In this document: positions 3,258 to 58,203 of the stretch, one piece after another
Layout: the number at the start of each line of letters is the position of its first letter
Numbering within the stretch: position 1 is the stretch's first letter
DNA from: Fodinibius salsisoli
GTDB taxonomy: Bacteria > Bacteroidota > Rhodothermia > Balneolales > Balneolaceae
Length of the DNA stretch: 64,000 nt
NCBI RefSeq assembly: GCF_026229185.1
Contig: NZ_JAGGJA010000003.1
Coordinates: 248,001 to 312,000 of the forward strand
Direction of reading: 5' to 3'
The notes under the pieces: generated by a model
What the model saw: only the letters and a program-made list of their open reading frames with translations
What the model was told of the DNA's origin: nothing
Database searches by the model: none
Position numbers and translations under genes: made by a program

Positions 3258-3890
3258 TTATAGATAAAACGCTATCGATAACCAATTATCCTGATAGCTA
3301 AAACTACAAATTTTAGCTTTTTTATCATCATCTAATTTCACCAGAAAATGATCTTGCTGCGACTGTACATACACATCATTCATATTCAGCCGCAGCCCCT
3401 CTCCCCTAAGTTTAATGTAGGCTTCCTTAATAGTCCATAGCTGTATTGTTGATACTTCCAGCTCCTCTTCCTTCTCGGTGGGATGAAGTATCCTTGTGCG
3501 CAGCCGTCCGGATACGTCACGATTCATGGGCTCCAGGTCTACACCAATGGGCTCTGTTCGTGTAAGTCCACAAAAGACCTCCTCCTTGGTATGGGCTATA
3601 CTAATTTCGTATCGATCGTCTCCTACCTCAGCAAAAGGATTGCCCAACTCGTTTTTGGCAACAACAAAATTAGCCGTATCAAGGTCCCATTCATCAGCCA
3701 GCTGCTTCAGCAAAAGTCGGGAGGTAACGAATTCACGCCTTCGCTCATCATTGGTGAAAGTAGCTAATTCTGAACTCTCTTTCTCATTTAACTCAGCCAC
3801 AATCTTGGGCGAAAGTGCTAAAATTCTTTTGAGGGCAAAGTTGCCGGCAAAGGGTAATGAATCGATAACTGCTGAAAGTGCTGTATTCAT
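3258..3890 (-). CDS. 4'-phosphopantetheinyl transferase superfamily protein (Sfp-like)
   Basis: 210 residues. Signature motifs of Sfp-type transferases are present: ISIAHTKEEVFCGL, then IGVDLEPMNR (Mg-binding Asp and Glu) and the WTIKEAYIKLRGEGL helix. The enzyme moves phosphopantetheine from CoA to a serine of a carrier protein. No carrier protein, NRPS or PKS gene lies in the window, so the target is elsewhere in the genome, and fatty-acid ACP activation is possible. It is the first gene of a minus-strand run with the Memo-like and DUF2520 genes. Its start faces lysS, about 170 bp away on the other strand. Confidence 0.9.
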   Translation of the reverse strand: MNTALSAVIDSLPFAGNFALKRILALSPKIVAELNEKESSELATFTNDERRREFVTSRLLLKQLADEWDLDTANFVVAKNELGNPFAEVGDDRYEISIAHTKEEVFCGLTRTEPIGVDLEPMNRDVSGRLRTRILHPTEKEEELEVSTIQLWTIKEAYIKLRGEGLRLNMNDVYVQSQQDHFLVKLDDDKKAKICSFSYQDNWLSIAFYL

Positions 3891-22154: not shown

Positions 22155-25100
22155 TTAGTTAAAGGAGTATCGAAGGCCAAACTGTACTCGCCAACGAGAT
22201 TCCAATCCAAATGTATTGACATAAGTATTATTTAAACTGGGATCAAAGCTGTAAACGGGTCCCTCGCTTGGATCAGCCACATTAATACCAACAGGCTGAC
22301 TGTTCGTCGGATCTTTCCGGACACCCCATTCTGAATTGAGCAGGTTGCCAATATTAAGAACATCAATACTGAATTCAATGGAGTTGTTGCCGAGATTCAG
22401 TTTCTGAAGCACTCGCAGATCATACTGACTGTACCACGGACTCAATACCGCATACTTTTCGGCATATTGCCCCCTTCGGCTGCTTAAGTAGTCGTCTTGG
22501 GCAATAAATTCACTGAATGCCTGGCGCTGAGCCTCCTGCTCTTGCCCGCTCCCCGTAAAGGAATAGGTCTGGAGCTCAGACTCTGTAGGAATGTAAATCA
22601 GATCATTCAACCCAGAACCGTCACCGTTTGCATCGCCGGAGTAGGTATAACTGAATCGTCCGCCCTTGGCATATTCAAAGAAGAGCGAGAAGGTAGTAGC
22701 CCATCGGCTGTCCTGCCCATAGCGAAAGGTTTTATTGGCCGTCCCTACAAAACGATGCTTGTTGCCATAAAGCGATGGGGATAGGTTCGGCGTATTTACA
22801 TTTCCAAGCGCCGGATTTCTTGCAAAAGCATCACTTGAAATTTCAGCTTCAATAGAATTTACATCCTGCGCATCCAGGTAGTTATAGGCCAGCGAAGTAA
22901 AGAAGTTTTCACCAAATCGCTTTTTGACCTCTACCGTCCAGTTAAAACTCCGTCCTTTATCCGTATTTGTGAAGACGTAGGCATTTTGAGCAGGTCCCCC
23001 GAATGCTCCTACCTGGTTACCATTCGGATCTTCGGCATAGTCATCAGTTGTGTAATAGGCCCTGTTATCAACCCCGTTTAAGGTGCCGGATGGCGGTTTT
23101 AATCCAAAGTTCTTAACCAGCACACCATTTACATCTTTGGTAAAGATGAAATCTGAGGAAAGTAACCAGCCGCCCTTAAATCGCTTTTCAACACCTATGT
23201 TTGAGCGCCAAACCTGGGGAAATTGGAAATCAGGGTCCGTGACCTGGTAAAATGAAAATCCTGTATTAGCAACCTGGTTGCCCACCCAAACAAATGGGAA
23301 GCGCCCTGTGAAGAGGCCTGATCCACCTCGAAGCTGTAGTGTCTGATTGCCCATGGGATTCCAGTTAAAACCAATACGTGGCGAAAGAATAGGCGTCTGC
23401 TCGGGAAGCTCTGTACTACTGAATTGCACCGGATTTCCATCCTCATCGTAGTAGGTTAAATCAGGAGCATAGGTGCCGCCTTCATCCAGGGTGCCCCCCT
23501 TTCGTTCAATATTCTCCCGGATCTTTTCTTTTGTATTAAAGTAGAGCGGCATATCCACGCGCAATCCATAGGTAAAGGTAAAGTCGTTGTTTATGGTCCA
23601 CTTATCCTGTGCATAAATGGCCCATTGACCGACGTTCGTCTCAGCCAGCGCCCAGCTGTCATTAGCATTATTATTATCAAAAACCTGTTGAGCATTTTCG
23701 ACTGCAGCATCAAGCCCACCGGAATTAACCAGATCTACGAAGTTTTCCATTGGGATACCTGCCCCGGAAAATACTCCACCCGGTTGCCCGATGTAGTACG
23801 CCCCAAGGTTAAAAGAGTTATCAAATTTGAAGGCTTCGAATGATGTACCTATGGTGATGGTATGGTCCCCTGCAAAAATGTCGAAATTGTTGGTCACCTG
23901 GTATACCTTCTGGTCGAGACGATTGTGGATAGAAAACGGCTCGTGTCCTGCAACGATATATCTGATACCATTTTTTGAAATGTTAACCGTGGGGAAAGGC
24001 GAACTAAAGGGATCCCGGCTGTCATCAAAATGGGTATACCCTACCTGCAGCTTATTCGAAAACTTATTACCAAGCAGTGACCGTAATTCTACGATACCGG
24101 ACTGTATCTTATTATTGATACGGTAGCCGGAATTATGAAACTGTAGTGTGGTCTGATCCGGTCCGCGACGGCCAATAGCCGAGGGATGTGCATTCTGCTC
24201 CCGAAAAGCATCCAGAAAGTTATAAGTAGCCGTTAAAGAGTGATTGTTATTGATGTTCCAATCGAGCTTAAAAATACCCTTGTTGTTATCAGTATCGTGC
24301 GAATAGCGTTCATAGGCGCCGGTACTGTATCCGTAACGATCGGCCAGTGCATTACTAACGGTCATCAGATCCTCTTCTTCTACCCGCGAAACATTGCCCC
24401 CGGATCGACTGGAATTATTGGCCAGGAAGTTACTTCCAAGGTCATCACGAAGATCAAGTTCAAAGTTGGCAAAGAAAAAGAGCTTATCTTTGATAATAGG
24501 TCCACCCAGGCTTAATCCCGTCTGGAACTGTGTAAGATCCGGCACAAAGATATCATTTCCTTCCACTTTGGATCCGGTAAAATCCTCATTTCGGTAGAAC
24601 CCAAACACCGATCCCTTAAACGTATTGGTTCCACTCTTGGTAACGGCATTGACGGCAGCACCGGTAAAACCAGCCTGTGTGACGTCATAGGGAGCTACCG
24701 ACACCTGAATCTGATCGATGGCATCCAGCGAGATGGGCTGAGCGTTGGACTGTCCCCCGGGCGTAGCGGCATCTAATCCAAAGGGATTATTAAAGATAGA
24801 GCCATCCAGCGAAAAGTTATTAAACTGGTCATTACGTCCGGCAAAGGAATTCCCATCCGAAGAAGGCGCCAGCCGGTAGATGTCTTCTGCAGAGCGGGTT
24901 ATAGTTGGTAACTGCTGAATTTCCGCATTGTCAATGGTAGTAGCAGCCCCGGTACGGCTTTCGTTGATATCCTCATCCCCTCCTGCCGTAACGACGACTT
25001 CGTCAAGACCTTCGACGTTTTCTGCCAGCTGAAAATTTACGGTTTGGGTTTTGCCCAGTGATAAGGTGATATCTCCCTGGACTTGTTTTTCGAAACCGAT

Positions 25101-25367
25101 GAAGGTTGCGGTAACGGTATAAGGCCCTCCAATACGAAGATTGGGCAGGGTAAATCGCCCGTTAGAACGAGTGGATACGCCCCTTTGTGTGCCCGACGGC
25201 TCATGTACCACAATTATATTTGCACCTGCTAACGGCTCTCCACTTTCATCAGTCACCTGCCCTTCGATGGAGGCAGTGGTAACCTGTGCATAACTTGTGT
25301 TAACTGTTAGTAGGGTACACAAACAGATTAACACAGCTCCTATTACTGCTTGTAACAATTTGGCCAT
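22155..25367 (-). CDS. Oar-like TonB-dependent receptor with carboxypeptidase-regulatory domain
   Basis: 1070 residues. A signal peptide (about 1-27, ending SYAQ) precedes a carboxypeptidase-regulatory-like domain (about 32-120, SIEGQVTDESGEPLAGANI), a plug with DINESRTGAATTIDNAEI and SLDGSIFNNPFG, then a long barrel ending in GLRYSFN. The SGTNTFKGSVFGFYRNEDFTG segment is typical of Oar/OmpA-related TonB receptors, which transport or secrete large ligands rather than act as SusC partners. The substrate is unknown. Its 5' region holds the 22-bp periodic repeat at 25644-25744, and a terminator-like hairpin follows the gene. Confidence 0.93.
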   Translation of the reverse strand: MAKLLQAVIGAVLICLCTLLTVNTSYAQVTTASIEGQVTDESGEPLAGANIIVVHEPSGTQRGVSTRSNGRFTLPNLRIGGPYTVTATFIGFEKQVQGDITLSLGKTQTVNFQLAENVEGLDEVVVTAGGDEDINESRTGAATTIDNAEIQQLPTITRSAEDIYRLAPSSDGNSFAGRNDQFNNFSLDGSIFNNPFGLDAATPGGQSNAQPISLDAIDQIQVSVAPYDVTQAGFTGAAVNAVTKSGTNTFKGSVFGFYRNEDFTGSKVEGNDIFVPDLTQFQTGLSLGGPIIKDKLFFFANFELDLRDDLGSNFLANNSSRSGGNVSRVEEEDLMTVSNALADRYGYSTGAYERYSHDTDNNKGIFKLDWNINNNHSLTATYNFLDAFREQNAHPSAIGRRGPDQTTLQFHNSGYRINNKIQSGIVELRSLLGNKFSNKLQVGYTHFDDSRDPFSSPFPTVNISKNGIRYIVAGHEPFSIHNRLDQKVYQVTNNFDIFAGDHTITIGTSFEAFKFDNSFNLGAYYIGQPGGVFSGAGIPMENFVDLVNSGGLDAAVENAQQVFDNNNANDSWALAETNVGQWAIYAQDKWTINNDFTFTYGLRVDMPLYFNTKEKIRENIERKGGTLDEGGTYAPDLTYYDEDGNPVQFSSTELPEQTPILSPRIGFNWNPMGNQTLQLRGGSGLFTGRFPFVWVGNQVANTGFSFYQVTDPDFQFPQVWRSNIGVEKRFKGGWLLSSDFIFTKDVNGVLVKNFGLKPPSGTLNGVDNRAYYTTDDYAEDPNGNQVGAFGGPAQNAYVFTNTDKGRSFNWTVEVKKRFGENFFTSLAYNYLDAQDVNSIEAEISSDAFARNPALGNVNTPNLSPSLYGNKHRFVGTANKTFRYGQDSRWATTFSLFFEYAKGGRFSYTYSGDANGDGSGLNDLIYIPTESELQTYSFTGSGQEQEAQRQAFSEFIAQDDYLSSRRGQYAEKYAVLSPWYSQYDLRVLQKLNLGNNSIEFSIDVLNIGNLLNSEWGVRKDPTNSQPVGINVADPSEGPVYSFDPSLNNTYVNTFGLESRWRVQFGLRYSFN

Positions 25368-25969
25368 ATTTTCTACACTTTTTAATTATATGATTACAAT
25401 TCATTAAAAGTTATTTAAATTTTGGGTAAATAAGTAGTCAAGGCATTCATAAGTTATATTCAGTGGAGATCACTTTAGTAAGGGGAGCACTTTGAAGCAA
25501 ATTCCTGTTGTCTAAATCCATACAAGCTTCAAGCTTAATTCGGTTTGAGATCCCCCGACAACATGGTATAGTTAAATTCTCTCAATAAGATCAACAGGTT
25601 GCATGCGCTCCCCCATTCTATTTGTTATATGGATTGGTCTGATATCCTTACTGTTTGTACCAATAATCCTTACTGTTTCCGCGGTACATCCTTACTGTTT
25701 CCGCGGTACATCCTTACTGTTTCTACACCATAAACAGTAAGGATTTTCGAATAAGGTACGGGGAGCCCGGCTGATTGCTAAGTGATTGAACACATTATTT
25801 CCTCTTTTAAGGAAACCTATGCCTGGGCTTAAAATATTGAAAGGAAGGTAAGTCGCCTTGTATATTCTATAATAGTGCGAACTTTTACTTGCACCATTGA
25901 TAGCAACAAAGCCAAAAGGCAGGACTCATGATCAAATTGAATAAGCTTTATAAAGAAACAGCAGTTGTA
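25368..25969. other. intergenic region with periodic repeat
   Basis: 602 bp between the LPP20-like lipoprotein gene and the Oar-like receptor, both on the minus strand. Apart from the array at 25644-25744 I see no gene or RNA. The receptor's promoter must lie here. Confidence 0.6.
25644..25744. repeat. 22-bp-period array of ATCCTTACTGTTT, last copy inverted
   Basis: Copies start at 25644, 25666, 25688 and 25710, each exactly 22 bp apart; the middle two units are identical over the full 22 bp (core plus CCGCGGTAC). A fifth copy, AAACAGTAAGGAT, begins at 25732, again 22 bp on, but inverted. The last two form a perfect 13-bp hairpin with a 9-nt loop followed by TTTT. The array is about 280 bp upstream of the receptor start. 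A regulator-binding array or a multi-state RNA hairpin are the two readings. Confidence 0.85.
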
Positions 25970-26533
25970 TTAAAAGCTGGAAAAAGCATCAGAGTTTACC
26001 AAGCTATTCCACGCCTCCTGGTGAGCGGATAACTGCTCCCCCATTCGTTCAATAAGCTCAGCCCGGTCTGCCTGAACTTCGGCAAACCCCAAAGAACTGG
26101 ATTGCCCTTCTACGCCTTGGGTATTGGTTTGACTGCTATTAGCCACCTCATTAACAACACGGTCCGCTTTACGAAGAGCAATCAAAAAGCCCGGCGTATC
26201 AAGTCCCGAGTCACTTCCCAGCTCTTTAAGAGCATCGTTGCGGACGGATTCAAGCCGGTTTGAAACGGACTGCCTAAGCAAAACACTGGCCCGTTCTACG
26301 GCCTTAGATACCGCTGAAACCGAATCGGGGCCAATAGCAGTGGCATAACTACTGATTGTTGAACCTTCAAAAGCTACTTCTTCCTTATTAAACCATGTGG
26401 GTGTTGACTGAGACTCCGCAGAAACATCATTTTGGGCATTGGCAGAGGGAGAAACCGTTTGTGATGTGCTTGAACATCCTGCAAAAGCACTTGCAACTAC
26501 GATGATTGTAAGTAAAGAAAATAAGCGGTTCAT
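25970..26533 (-). CDS. LPP20-like lipoprotein
   Basis: 187 residues. A lipoprotein signal ends in ASAFAGCSS. The mature part has PTWFNKEEV, then SSYATAIGPDSVSAVSKAVERAS, the 'P-x-W-F ... Y-A-x-G ... A' arrangement of LPP20-family outer membrane lipoproteins. The remainder is predicted helical and rich in Ser, Asn and Gln. No function is established for most members. It stands alone downstream of htrA, with about 260 bp between them. Confidence 0.7.
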   Translation of the reverse strand: MNRLFSLLTIIVVASAFAGCSSTSQTVSPSANAQNDVSAESQSTPTWFNKEEVAFEGSTISSYATAIGPDSVSAVSKAVERASVLLRQSVSNRLESVRNDALKELGSDSGLDTPGFLIALRKADRVVNEVANSSQTNTQGVEGQSSSLGFAEVQADRAELIERMGEQLSAHQEAWNSLVNSDAFSSF

Positions 26534-40806: not shown

Positions 40807-42771
40807 TTAATTTTTTATTAAATCTTCAATATTCCAACCTGCATTGTCAAGCTCTTCAATGTCGTCATCGGTAATATTTTCCTTGTACATTGCAAGACAA
40901 AGCAAATATTTAGGTCTCGTCATGCCTACAAATATGTTTCTCATTCTTTGCTCTTTTCGCTTTTTAACTTTCTCTCTGTTCCCTTTGAGTGACTCTACTA
41001 ATTTTGATAAATCATGACCATGCATATAAGTTTCCAAAATTAATGTAGCGTCATGCGTCTCACCTTTTATTGAATGTATTGTAGATAAATCTACTTGGAT
41101 GCTCAATTCATCATTCGAATAGCTGTAGGTATTTAAATCTTTCGTACTACCGTCTGCCAATTTAGATACATCAAAACTACTTTCATCAAGATACTTTACA
41201 AATTCTTTCACTTCACCCTTATTATCCCCAGTCAACAAAATTCCAATAATTTCGAATATTGAACTAACTATTTCTTCCCAATTTTCCTTATTCAACTCCA
41301 AAGATAATTCAAGACAATCATAGAAGATTTTATTTAATAACTGGTGTTTCCCAACATCATTTAACCATCTAATAAAACTTCTTTTACTATATCTTTTACC
41401 TTCTTCTGTTTTTGACCCACTTTTACTTAAAATTCTTAAAACCCCTTTTAAAAGAAGATCATAGCTTTCTTTAAACTCATTGTCTTTTTTTAAGAGGTAT
41501 CTACTGAGAAATACATAGTCAATTAGATAAGAAATATTAATATTGGACGTCGTTATTTCTTCGTTGAAATCAGCAAAGTAATCATTGATTAGATATGGGA
41601 AATTTTTGTTTTGCTTAATTTCTTCTTGACTTCTTGAGTCTGACTTTCTTAATCCTATAGCTTTTACTGTATGGCTTTTACTTTCTAGTTTACCAAACTC
41701 ATCAATAACTAATTCACAAAAAGACGGAAGTACTTCCGCGATTGAATTTTTATCGAATAAAAAGATGGTATTTTTAAAATTATTTCGCTCATCAAAACCT
41801 ACTAATTGTTGAGGGTTAATTGCAGTAAAGTAAGAAGCTGAATTTGCAATCTTGTTCCCAAATCTTTTAGAAGTTTTAACCTCGATCTTTTTTTCTTCAT
41901 AAGGAAAATCTTCTAATAAACTTCCTTGGTTACCCGAATATATTGACTGATTGATATCACCAAGTTTTTGAACAGTAGAACCTTCTGAAAAGATATCCTT
42001 TAGAATTTTATCCTGTTGGAAATTTGAATCCTGAATCTCGTCAATAAATACTAATGGGAACCTGGTATTTATTACATTTTTGATTGAAGGAAATTTTGCC
42101 AAATAGTATTCAGAAAAGGCATACATATCATTGAATCGCAAAATTCCTTTGCGAAGTAATTCTAACTTTATCTCTTTAAGTTCTTGATAGGTTTCTATGT
42201 CTTTTCCCCAAGGAAGCTGTTTCCTACCATATCTGGATATATAAGTTAAATCTAACTCTGATCCTTCGAATTCTAAAGTACTGGCGATCCTTTCCCCGTT
42301 GTATTTATGACTAAGAGTTCTTCGAGCATTGTATTTATACTGAAGCAATTCTAAGGCATTTTCTGAGAAAATTTTATTATCAATAAAGCTGATTTCAATC
42401 CCTTTATTCCTTAAAAGTGGGAGAGCGAAATAATTATTGATAAATGATTGTATTGTACCTATAAAATGCGGATAGCCCAATAGATCTAAACCTCCTTCAA
42501 TTTTTGAAAGCCGTTTTTCAATTTCTTCTCTGGCAACGTTCGTATGTGACAATACACAAATTCCTCGATCAGACCACTTCCATTTCTGTGCTAGAATAGC
42601 AAGTTTAGCAACCAATAGAGTTGTTTTTCCACTACCTGGTCCAGCTTGAACATCTAAATTACTTAAACTTTTTAATACCTCATCTCGATTATCTTCGGTA
42701 AAGCTAAAACCAAATATTTTCTCAATTGATGCTATATCCTGATCACTGATATTTAAATCGTTGTCAATCAT
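40807..42771 (-). CDS. gajB: UvrD-like helicase of a Gabija-like system (GajB)
   Basis: 654 residues. Superfamily 1 helicase motifs: Walker A AGPGSGKTT (44-50 for the loop), motif II FIDEIQD (Asp244, Glu245, Asp248), motif V TIHSIKGETHDATL and motif VI FVGMTRPKYLL. It overlaps the OLD-family gene upstream by 4 bp (ATGA). In Gabija, GajB associates with the GajA tetramer and is required for phage defence. The protein is longer than the prototype of about 490 residues. The DNA is clearly A/T-richer than its neighbours, which suggests horizontal transfer. Confidence 0.85.
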   Translation of the reverse strand: MIDNDLNISDQDIASIEKIFGFSFTEDNRDEVLKSLSNLDVQAGPGSGKTTLLVAKLAILAQKWKWSDRGICVLSHTNVAREEIEKRLSKIEGGLDLLGYPHFIGTIQSFINNYFALPLLRNKGIEISFIDNKIFSENALELLQYKYNARRTLSHKYNGERIASTLEFEGSELDLTYISRYGRKQLPWGKDIETYQELKEIKLELLRKGILRFNDMYAFSEYYLAKFPSIKNVINTRFPLVFIDEIQDSNFQQDKILKDIFSEGSTVQKLGDINQSIYSGNQGSLLEDFPYEEKKIEVKTSKRFGNKIANSASYFTAINPQQLVGFDERNNFKNTIFLFDKNSIAEVLPSFCELVIDEFGKLESKSHTVKAIGLRKSDSRSQEEIKQNKNFPYLINDYFADFNEEITTSNINISYLIDYVFLSRYLLKKDNEFKESYDLLLKGVLRILSKSGSKTEEGKRYSKRSFIRWLNDVGKHQLLNKIFYDCLELSLELNKENWEEIVSSIFEIIGILLTGDNKGEVKEFVKYLDESSFDVSKLADGSTKDLNTYSYSNDELSIQVDLSTIHSIKGETHDATLILETYMHGHDLSKLVESLKGNREKVKKRKEQRMRNIFVGMTRPKYLLCLAMYKENITDDDIEELDNAGWNIEDLIKN

Positions 42772-57870: not shown

Positions 57871-57894
57871 AATTACCTCACTTTTTCCATATAT

Positions 57895-57968
57895 AACCAA
57901 AACAGTTTAAAAAAACAATTTTTAACTATAATGGTTAAAAAATAATTTATTTAACCATAACAGTTTAA
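57895..57968. promoter_or_regulatory. three operator-like boxes exactly 29 bp apart upstream of SatD
   Basis: AACCAAAACAGTTTAA at 57895, AACTATAATGGTTAAA at 57924 and AACCATAACAGTTTAA at 57953. Boxes 1 and 3 agree in 15 of 16 bases; all fit AACYAWAAYRGTT, an imperfect palindrome. They lie 25-98 bp before the SatD start, on the same operon promoter. A dimeric regulator, most simply the HTH of SatD, could bind. Confidence 0.7.
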
Positions 57969-58203
57969 AAGTAGCCTATGGGTACTTTTTCTTAGGTGAC
58001 GGCTCCCCTTCCCTGGTTCCCTTATGGGCAAGCACCTGAAGAAAAGTGTTAGCACGGTAAATCCAACTCCTTTTCATTTTATGTACTCCCATTACAAAAA
58101 CTGATACTTGCATTCTGCTTTCTGTAAAAAGCTTACTATCTTTTATGACTTGTCATATAGCCACGTTGGCCATACTAATGTCTGAATATCTCGATAAAAA
58201 ATT

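Follow-up and report, generated by a model that had tools for sequence, protein, structure and literature searches.

IHF recognizes a single loose consensus, and in the REP/RAYT systems a gene is accompanied by adjacent palindromic repeats and by further, dispersed repeats. The clades of HU/IHF proteins were reportedly described by Burroughs and others in 2017. The RIB/RIP and BIME repeats of E. coli are bound by IHF and lie at the 3' ends of transcription units, according to the title of a 1993 EMBO J paper cited in PMC12306157. HU is a general DNA-bending protein with little sequence preference, and together with REP325/naRNA4 it acts in nucleoid condensation via repeat-derived RNA and cruciform DNA (PMC6907758). 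TDE_2259 of Treponema denticola is a protein with PF14848 and PF14734 domains, whose neighbor by locus tag is lrrA, a leucine-rich-repeat gene; the section of the paper that describes it does not mention a repeat array (PMC12724145).

We analyzed a 22-bp-step array, A4, which belongs to a family of tandem arrays linked to genes for proteins with an HU-type DNA-binding domain and an Ig-like domain (HU-Ig genes). As in the RIB/BIME-IHF pair (cited in PMC12306157), repeats at the 3' ends of transcription units go with a protein of the HU/IHF superfamily; unlike that pair, most HU-Ig genes possess their own array with its own sequence, the period is 22 or 23 bp, the protein has an added Ig-like domain, and binding is predicted. 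The system shares with HU and REP325 an HU-family protein and extragenic palindromes in DNA organization, and differs from the RNA- and cruciform-based mode described there (PMC6907758) in that no covariation was detected between the arms of the HU-Ig arrays.

Searches of the open-licence literature found no description of an HU-Ig gene and an array as a module, nothing on DUF4469, and nothing joining HU-like proteins, Bacteroides and palindromic repeats. Among the matches listed in that literature for BVU 2165/4FMR, HU-HIG, the HU superfamily and CCDC81, none was relevant by title, and CTTACTGT was not found mentioned in it together with iteron.

Array A4 and its sister arrays

The genome comprises 4,847,776 bases in 43 contigs, and the window, i.e., the whole 64,000-bp stretch of DNA analyzed, corresponds to C33:248001-312000. 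The core of A4, ATCCTTACTGTTT, occurs in exact form on the forward strand at 25644, 25666, 25688 and 25710, with an inverted copy at 25732-25744; sequence search thus reproduced exactly what inspection had first shown, five copies spaced strictly 22 bp apart, the last of them inverted. A4 has the top Tandem Repeats Finder score in the window (period 22, score 116; runner-up 92). The window also contains imperfect tandem repeats at 57890-57970 and 42299-42360 (periods 29 and 30, scores 92 and 71). The features of the locus and the sister arrays are as follows.

25622..25634, reverse strand: position of the left inverted copy, weak (6/13 letters match by eye), recognizable in A1-A3 and hardly in A4
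25644..25656, forward strand: direct copy D1, ATCCTTACTGTTT, then spacer GTACCAATA (from the sequence)
25666..25678, forward strand: direct copy D2, then spacer CCGCGGTAC (from the sequence)
25688..25700, forward strand: second exact D2 unit, a 22-bp tandem duplication absent from A1-A3 (from array comparison)
25710..25722, forward strand: direct copy D3, then spacer CTACACCAT, which varies at most in its first letter across the four arrays
25732..25744, reverse strand: terminal inverted copy, then TTT (from the sequence and array comparison)
25644..25744, no strand: orphan 22-bp-step array A4 of the HU-Ig-linked array family (from sequence comparison)
22155..25367, reverse strand: Oar-like outer-membrane protein gene, context only (Pfam OMP_b-brl_4 and CarboxypepD_reg)
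25970..26533, reverse strand: 187-aa lipoprotein-like gene with its 3' end towards A4, context only ('lipoprotein' by eye; no Pfam match)
C2:41695-41773: array A1
C2:91137-91215, reverse strand: array A2
C33:247542-247620: array A3

The two Pfam matches, OMP_b-brl_4 and CarboxypepD_reg, bear out the earlier call of an Oar-like receptor gene.

The 13-mer ATCCTTACTGTTT has 15 exact copies in the whole 4.85-Mb genome, all inside the four arrays, and none of the 11 one-mismatch 13-mers outside them has a partner (at most 3 mismatches) 22 or 44 bp away. In each array the units are spaced 22 bp apart, and one end carries an inverted copy. In canonical form the element consists, in order, of a degenerate inverted copy, three direct copies and a final inverted one; the degenerate copy is present before the first direct copy in three of the four arrays (CTGTAAGGAT in A2) and barely recognizable in A4. 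The four arrays agree fully in D1, D2 and the last inverted core; D3 is altered in A1 and A2, and the inverted core carries no matching change. Since the spacers are also partly conserved among A1-A4, the last one almost fully, the arrays are copies of one element. The matches extend over 104 bp between A1 and A2, 106 bp between A2 and A3, 82 bp between A1 and A3, and 82-86 bp between A4 and the others, and the flanks are unmatched. A4 contains one exact 22-bp unit, the second, more than its three sisters, in agreement with the earlier suggestion that the number of units changes, here in the course of evolution.

Association of the arrays with HU-Ig genes

Array A2 lies ~90 bp past the stop of an HU-Ig gene (C2:91328-92041, 237 aa), whose product matches PF14848 (HU-DNA_bdg, E 3.4e-29) and PF14734 (DUF4469, an Ig-like domain). 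A structure model built from 21 homologues (mean pLDDT 88.1, pTM 0.53) has 4fmr as its nearest solved structure (E 1.7e-17; Z 15), a Bacteroides vulgatus entry titled as a putative DNA-binding protein. An HU-type DNA-binding domain is indicated by the PF14848 match, together with model residues 24-117, which align with chains of the HU family, the Hbb-DNA complex among them (Z 7.5 and 7.1, values at which the likeness may be limited to a common arrangement). Residues 125-234 resemble the Ig/TIG domains of cyclodextrin glycosyltransferase, TonEBP, NFAT1 and EBF1 (Z 7.7-11.4); the arrangement of the domains in the model is poorly fixed (rmsd about 15 for the whole chain).

Homologues of this gene were found in 6 of the 12 searched genomes of the genus, 24 genes with the seed included (25 rows, two of them for one broken gene). 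Their flanks were evaluated by a period score, S, for three successive dyads within 420 bp after the stop at each period from 15 to 40 (26 periods), with 12 dinucleotide-preserving shuffles for each flank. The best period is 22 or 23 in 18 of the 24 3' flanks vs 2 of the 24 5' flanks, chance being two in 26 periods. All 18 positives score above all 12 of their shuffles, one of them narrowly (L075, 34 vs 32). The seed (A2, L010) is among the 18, and without it the count is 17/23. The six misses are L076, L081, L164, the broken genes L163 and L165, and the contig-end fragment L156. With corrected 3' ends, which are not included in the 18/24, the best period of L163 becomes 23 (S 40), and L165 remains a miss at period 21 (S 34).

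Strong 22/23-bp arrays (S at least 41) follow 16 of the 24 HU-Ig genes vs none of 262 control genes from 31 loci of relatives, for which 22 or 23 is the best period in 23/262. A scan of 771 kb, in loci partly chosen for their HU-Ig genes, revealed 18 places with S of at least 43, a threshold that A1 does not reach. The period is 22 bp in 7 and 23 bp in 9 of them, and the other two, of 20 and 33 bp, fall on a single further spot. Eleven of the 18 lie at the 3' ends of HU-Ig genes, which leaves 3 orphans, 3 places in one plasmid-like locus and 1 unexplained. No place at this threshold was found in the 16 loci of relatives without HU-Ig genes (L082-L097). A4 belongs to this family as a copy of the gene-linked array A2 with the same 22-bp step. 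A possible further 22-bp dyad array (S 44) occurs in this genome at L029:11929 (C6:81.9k), and a gene that looks patatin-like by eye follows the HU-Ig gene and array in L074, L075 and L157 (G001, G009 and G004).

We also built a covariance model from the four arrays and searched 128 genomes of the order under strict filters. It matched only two other genomes, G008 in two places and, doubtfully, G074. Both G008 matches are modest (E 0.0017 and 0.0041). Each is an array at a 22-bp step whose core, ATCCTTACT(A/G)GAT, is related to that of A1-A4, one of them located 3' of that genome's closest homologue of the A2 HU-Ig gene (64% identical). The G074 match (E 0.017) was rejected, as the 22-bp repeats are missing by eye.

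Distant HU-Ig homologues were identified by tblastn on a Treponema saccharophilum plasmid, in six plasmid-named records of Parabacteroides distasonis (TSDC17.2-1.1) and on two phage-labelled gut contigs, some of which may be chromosomal pieces despite these labels. Four were found with the A2-side protein, to which they are 25-28% identical; the others are 23-35% identical to a Parabacteroides protein. The best period in these nine 3' flanks is 23 bp in seven, 24 in one and none in one, compared with 23 bp in one of nine 5' flanks, at shuffle level; L175 and L180 exceed their (mononucleotide) shuffles narrowly (42 vs 38 and 39). The link between the gene and the 3' period therefore spans at least Bacteroidota and Spirochaetota. 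A search of IMG/VR for HU-Ig homologues gave 22 pattern matches, none of which was confirmed. On the T. saccharophilum plasmid pTS2 (L171), a hypothetical and a leucine-rich-repeat gene follow the HU-Ig gene and array, which resembles the lrrA neighbor of TDE_2259 (PMC12724145). In one Parabacteroides record (L178), the HU-Ig gene and its array interrupt an ABC-transporter gene cluster and run opposite to it, which gives the appearance of an insertion.

Array units and their turnover

An HU-Ig array typically has some 3-7 units, and the unit length is 22 or, more often, 23 bp. Clear dyads are present in most arrays, e.g., TATCCCTATAGGGATA, TAACACGTCGTGTTA, CCTTATAAGG and CATGATAGCTATCATG. The units of the genome studied here are poor dyads: in A2 a single unit has at least 5 pairs, and the symmetry of A1-A4 comes mainly from the inverted end copies. 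The earlier impression that the repeats look like sites of a DNA-binding protein at a constant step is supported. The accompanying statement that 22 bp keeps the sites on one face of the helix is only roughly right for A4; at 10.5 bp per turn each step adds a turn of ~34 degrees, and most arrays of the family have a 23-bp period.

The dyad sequence varies from gene to gene, with the period and the 3' position retained. The fraction of shared array 6-mers is 0.56 for L077/L073 (proteins 86% identical), 0.35 for L074/L075 (90%) and 0.17 for L010/L071 (63%), and ranges from 0 to 0.11 for the other protein pairs at 57-75% identity. Protein identity and array similarity are not significantly correlated by rank (Spearman 0.07, p 0.37; 18 genes, 153 pairs); the Mantel r of 0.36 (0/5000 permutations) rests on the closest protein pairs. 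This fast change of the dyads may reflect either changing specificity of the proteins or drift of a loosely recognized site.

Proposed function of the HU-Ig genes and arrays

From sequence comparison, we consider it on balance probable that A4 is a trans copy, separated from the gene, of an array that serves as the predicted binding target of the HU-Ig protein encoded at C2:91328-92041. Genes of this family usually have an array downstream of the stop whose sequence is specific to the gene in question, and copies of the array alone would have spread to other intergenic places, A4 among them. HU-Ig dimers may each bind one 22/23-bp unit, side by side, and the bound dimers could bend or bridge DNA, thus forming a nucleoprotein platform at the ends of transcription units. 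By analogy, the array is probably a REP/RIB-like DNA-organizing platform.

It can be speculated, more tentatively, that HU-Ig genes and 22/23-bp dyad arrays make up an undescribed two-part system present in at least Bacteroidota and Spirochaetota, in which each protein has its own fast-changing array, arrays multiply in trans at intergenic sites, and chromosomal places within one genus are marked by many parallel pairs of protein and site, each distinct from the others. If true, the HU fold would here underlie a labelling system that diverges rapidly and resembles centromeres or insulators. Independently of this, an HU-Ig family in which most genes lie beside their own tandem dyad array would provide a natural set of proteins labelled by their own sites, with sequences that change quickly. 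The PF14848/PF14734 family would gain a testable target, and a class of 22/23-bp intergenic arrays would be explained.

Orphan arrays and their genomic context

Orphan arrays carry the sequence of a gene-linked array without the gene. The genome studied here has four of them, A1, A3, A4 and a 22-bp array at C22:182.5k (L151:8537-8620), which lies between ferritin-like and rpiB-like genes (by eye); on visual comparison, its TAACACG..CGTGTTA dyads correspond to the array of the G004 HU-Ig gene. G008 has an orphan array at C11. One Parabacteroides orphan is 88% identical over 42 bp to an HU-Ig-linked array in another record of the same strain, and is located between convergent genes; three other Parabacteroides arrays searched in the same way have no relative in another record. 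No convincing HU-Ig remnant was detected near the orphans (nine matches, E 0.04 to 0.87, in six sequences searched).

In agreement with the 3' intergenic position of RIB/BIME repeats, A1, A2 and A3 each lie between convergent genes. For A2, these are a DUF6602 gene and the 237-aa HU-Ig gene. The neighbors of A1 are, judging by their sequences, SIMPL-domain and amidohydrolase genes, and those of A3, on the same basis, RND efflux and TlpA-like genes. A4 is only slightly nearer to a 3' end, because it lies ~225 bp past the stop of the lipoprotein-like gene and ~276-277 bp upstream of the Oar-like start codon. In two relatives that have the same two A4 neighbor genes (G001 and G002), the gap is ~190 bp and contains no array. 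The SIMPL-domain and TlpA-like genes are convergent neighbors in G004 and G009 (with a queD-like gene between them in G004), and are found here on different contigs (L009 C2:41.7k and L011 C33:247.5k), beside A1 and A3. The synteny break at A1 and A3 could be a rearrangement with the element at both ends. The partner junction of a reciprocal A1-A3 recombination, RND efflux next to amidohydrolase genes, was not seen in the examined flanks of six relatives each.

The distribution of the copies bears on a different explanation, namely that A4 is a mobile REP- or MITE-like repeat, a ~105-bp array transposed by an unidentified enzyme, and that its nearness to HU-Ig genes results from a shared preference for 3' intergenic insertion. 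It is consistent with arrays that share only themselves (104 bp in A1-A2, 106 bp in A2-A3, no flanks), with the position of A1 and A3 at a synteny break, with the eight Y1_Tnp genes of the genome, and with the absence of the palindrome from 11 other genomes of the genus and, at the stringency used, from 91 other genomes of the family. The exact palindrome was likewise not found in the 84,980-species collection, from which the genome studied here was possibly left out, or in IMG/VR. However, none of the eight Y1_Tnp loci (L021-L028, about 3 kb each) contains an array, and a shared insertion preference would not be expected to place arrays of one period but many unrelated sequences beside HU-Ig genes. 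The likeness to REP/RAYT, i.e., a gene, adjacent palindromic repeats and dispersed copies, is limited by the lack of arrays at the Y1_Tnp loci and by the tandem order of the HU-Ig units at a fixed 22/23-bp step. We consider the mobile-repeat explanation unlikely, and favor the target-site array of an HU-Ig protein.

Folding, arms and predicted terminators

A further explanation regards the array as an RNA element, with tandem hairpins acting as a bidirectional terminator or attenuator in 3' untranslated RNA; the earlier note had proposed alternative RNA hairpins with a terminator for A4. On either strand, the folding of all four arrays of the genome is more favorable than that of shuffled sequences (z -4.0 to -7.9), a T-run follows the inverted copy, the right end of A2 is also terminator-like in the terminator scan, and many arrays of the family come directly after stop codons, all of which favors this view. 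An intrinsic terminator is predicted after the array in four loci (L074, L075, L157 and L158). However, it is predicted between the stop and the array in six loci (L010, L071, L072, L073, L077 and L159), and none was found in several others. Since terminators are variously located before or after the arrays or not found, the position of the arrays relative to the mRNA is not constant.

If the units formed hairpins, arms within a unit should fit each other better than arms taken across units. In 24 arrays (21 gene-linked and 3 orphans; A1-A4 not included), with period and register chosen without pairing information, 617 of 990 pairs within dyads are Watson-Crick vs 624.4 +/- 8.5 in permutations, i.e., no within-dyad covariation was detected; the power of this test is limited because the units of one array are often alike. 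The dyad and arm tests omit L076, L081, L163, L164, L165, L156 (array not called), L176 and L179, and the arm test further omits the seed L010 as well as L155, L159 and L173 (fewer than 3 complete dyads in the block). Given arms that do not covary, symmetric half-sites of a protein fit the dyads better than hairpins do. Compensatory change is likewise absent between the altered D3 and the inverted copy of A1 and A2, both neighbors of A4 are encoded opposite to the strand that bears the T-run, and the five Rfam matches obtained are all far below their gathering scores. The RNA explanation is quite improbable, and putative protein-binding dyads are favored over the hairpin and terminator proposal. 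A single hairpin close to the element core, CAGTAAGG..CCTTACTG, occurs elsewhere in the genome at L033:1030-1070 (C22:195.1k), adjoining an apparent rho 3' end (by eye).

Similar repeats near replication genes and in other genomes

Plasmid iteron origins (Rep_3, RepA_C) resemble the HU-Ig loci in having tandem 22/23-bp units beside the gene of a DNA-binding protein, and A4 itself shows the 22-bp step and tandem direct repeats within the range of about 20-22 bp. This raises the question of plasmid-type iterons left on the chromosome, or of decoys for a Rep protein. A looser direct-repeat pattern matched 10 genome loci and no viral loci. Its core, CCTTACTGT, is present in arrays beside Rep_3 genes in two Vagococcus records, a Kurthia and a Carnobacterium record; the Rep_3 assignment comes from a family search on these four proteins only, and the other six loci have no rep-like gene by eye. 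As 10 matches are near the number expected by chance for an 18-base pattern (about 7.5), the shared core is perhaps a coincidence. The genome also has its own RepA_C gene followed by 23-bp repeats of another sequence. In contrast to iteron origins, the units of HU-Ig arrays are mostly dyads, their orphans are on chromosomal contigs, and the array family follows HU-Ig genes rather than rep genes. The genome has no Rep_3 gene above the cut-off (best 17.9 bits vs 22.4; the assembly is 98% complete, so a missing plasmid is possible), and on this ground the iteron reading was dropped as highly improbable.

The earlier proposal that the array controls the Oar-like receptor, as an operator or by phase variation, is equally improbable. 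The array starts 277 bp upstream of the Oar start codon and has one unit more than its sisters, a difference between paralogous arrays of one genome; the sisters, which have the same core, are all three flanked by convergent genes, and one is 3' of an HU-Ig gene. The probable origin of A4 as a copy of an HU-Ig target-site array is retained.

DNA searches of A4 against plasmids and of A3 against phages gave weak matches; the best of these, to Dulem virus 39 (E 8e-4), looks by eye like AT-rich coding DNA and was discarded. A plasmid-like region of the genome (L152:7259-11210, C8:49.2k-53.2k) contains the RepA_C gene, three 23-bp repeats CACGCATACTAAGTACAC, and MobC-like, relaxase and ParA-like genes (MobC and ParA by eye). 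Marinilabiliaceae JC017 has two 22-bp repeat blocks with cores like CTTTACTGTCC and CCTTACTGTCC (L130:2511-2655 and 3497-3633), near which no rep gene was seen by eye. Finally, in Prevotella RUG515 (L127:170-270) two copies of CCTTACTGTCG lie within a long inverted repeat, 3' of an elongation factor G-like gene (by eye).
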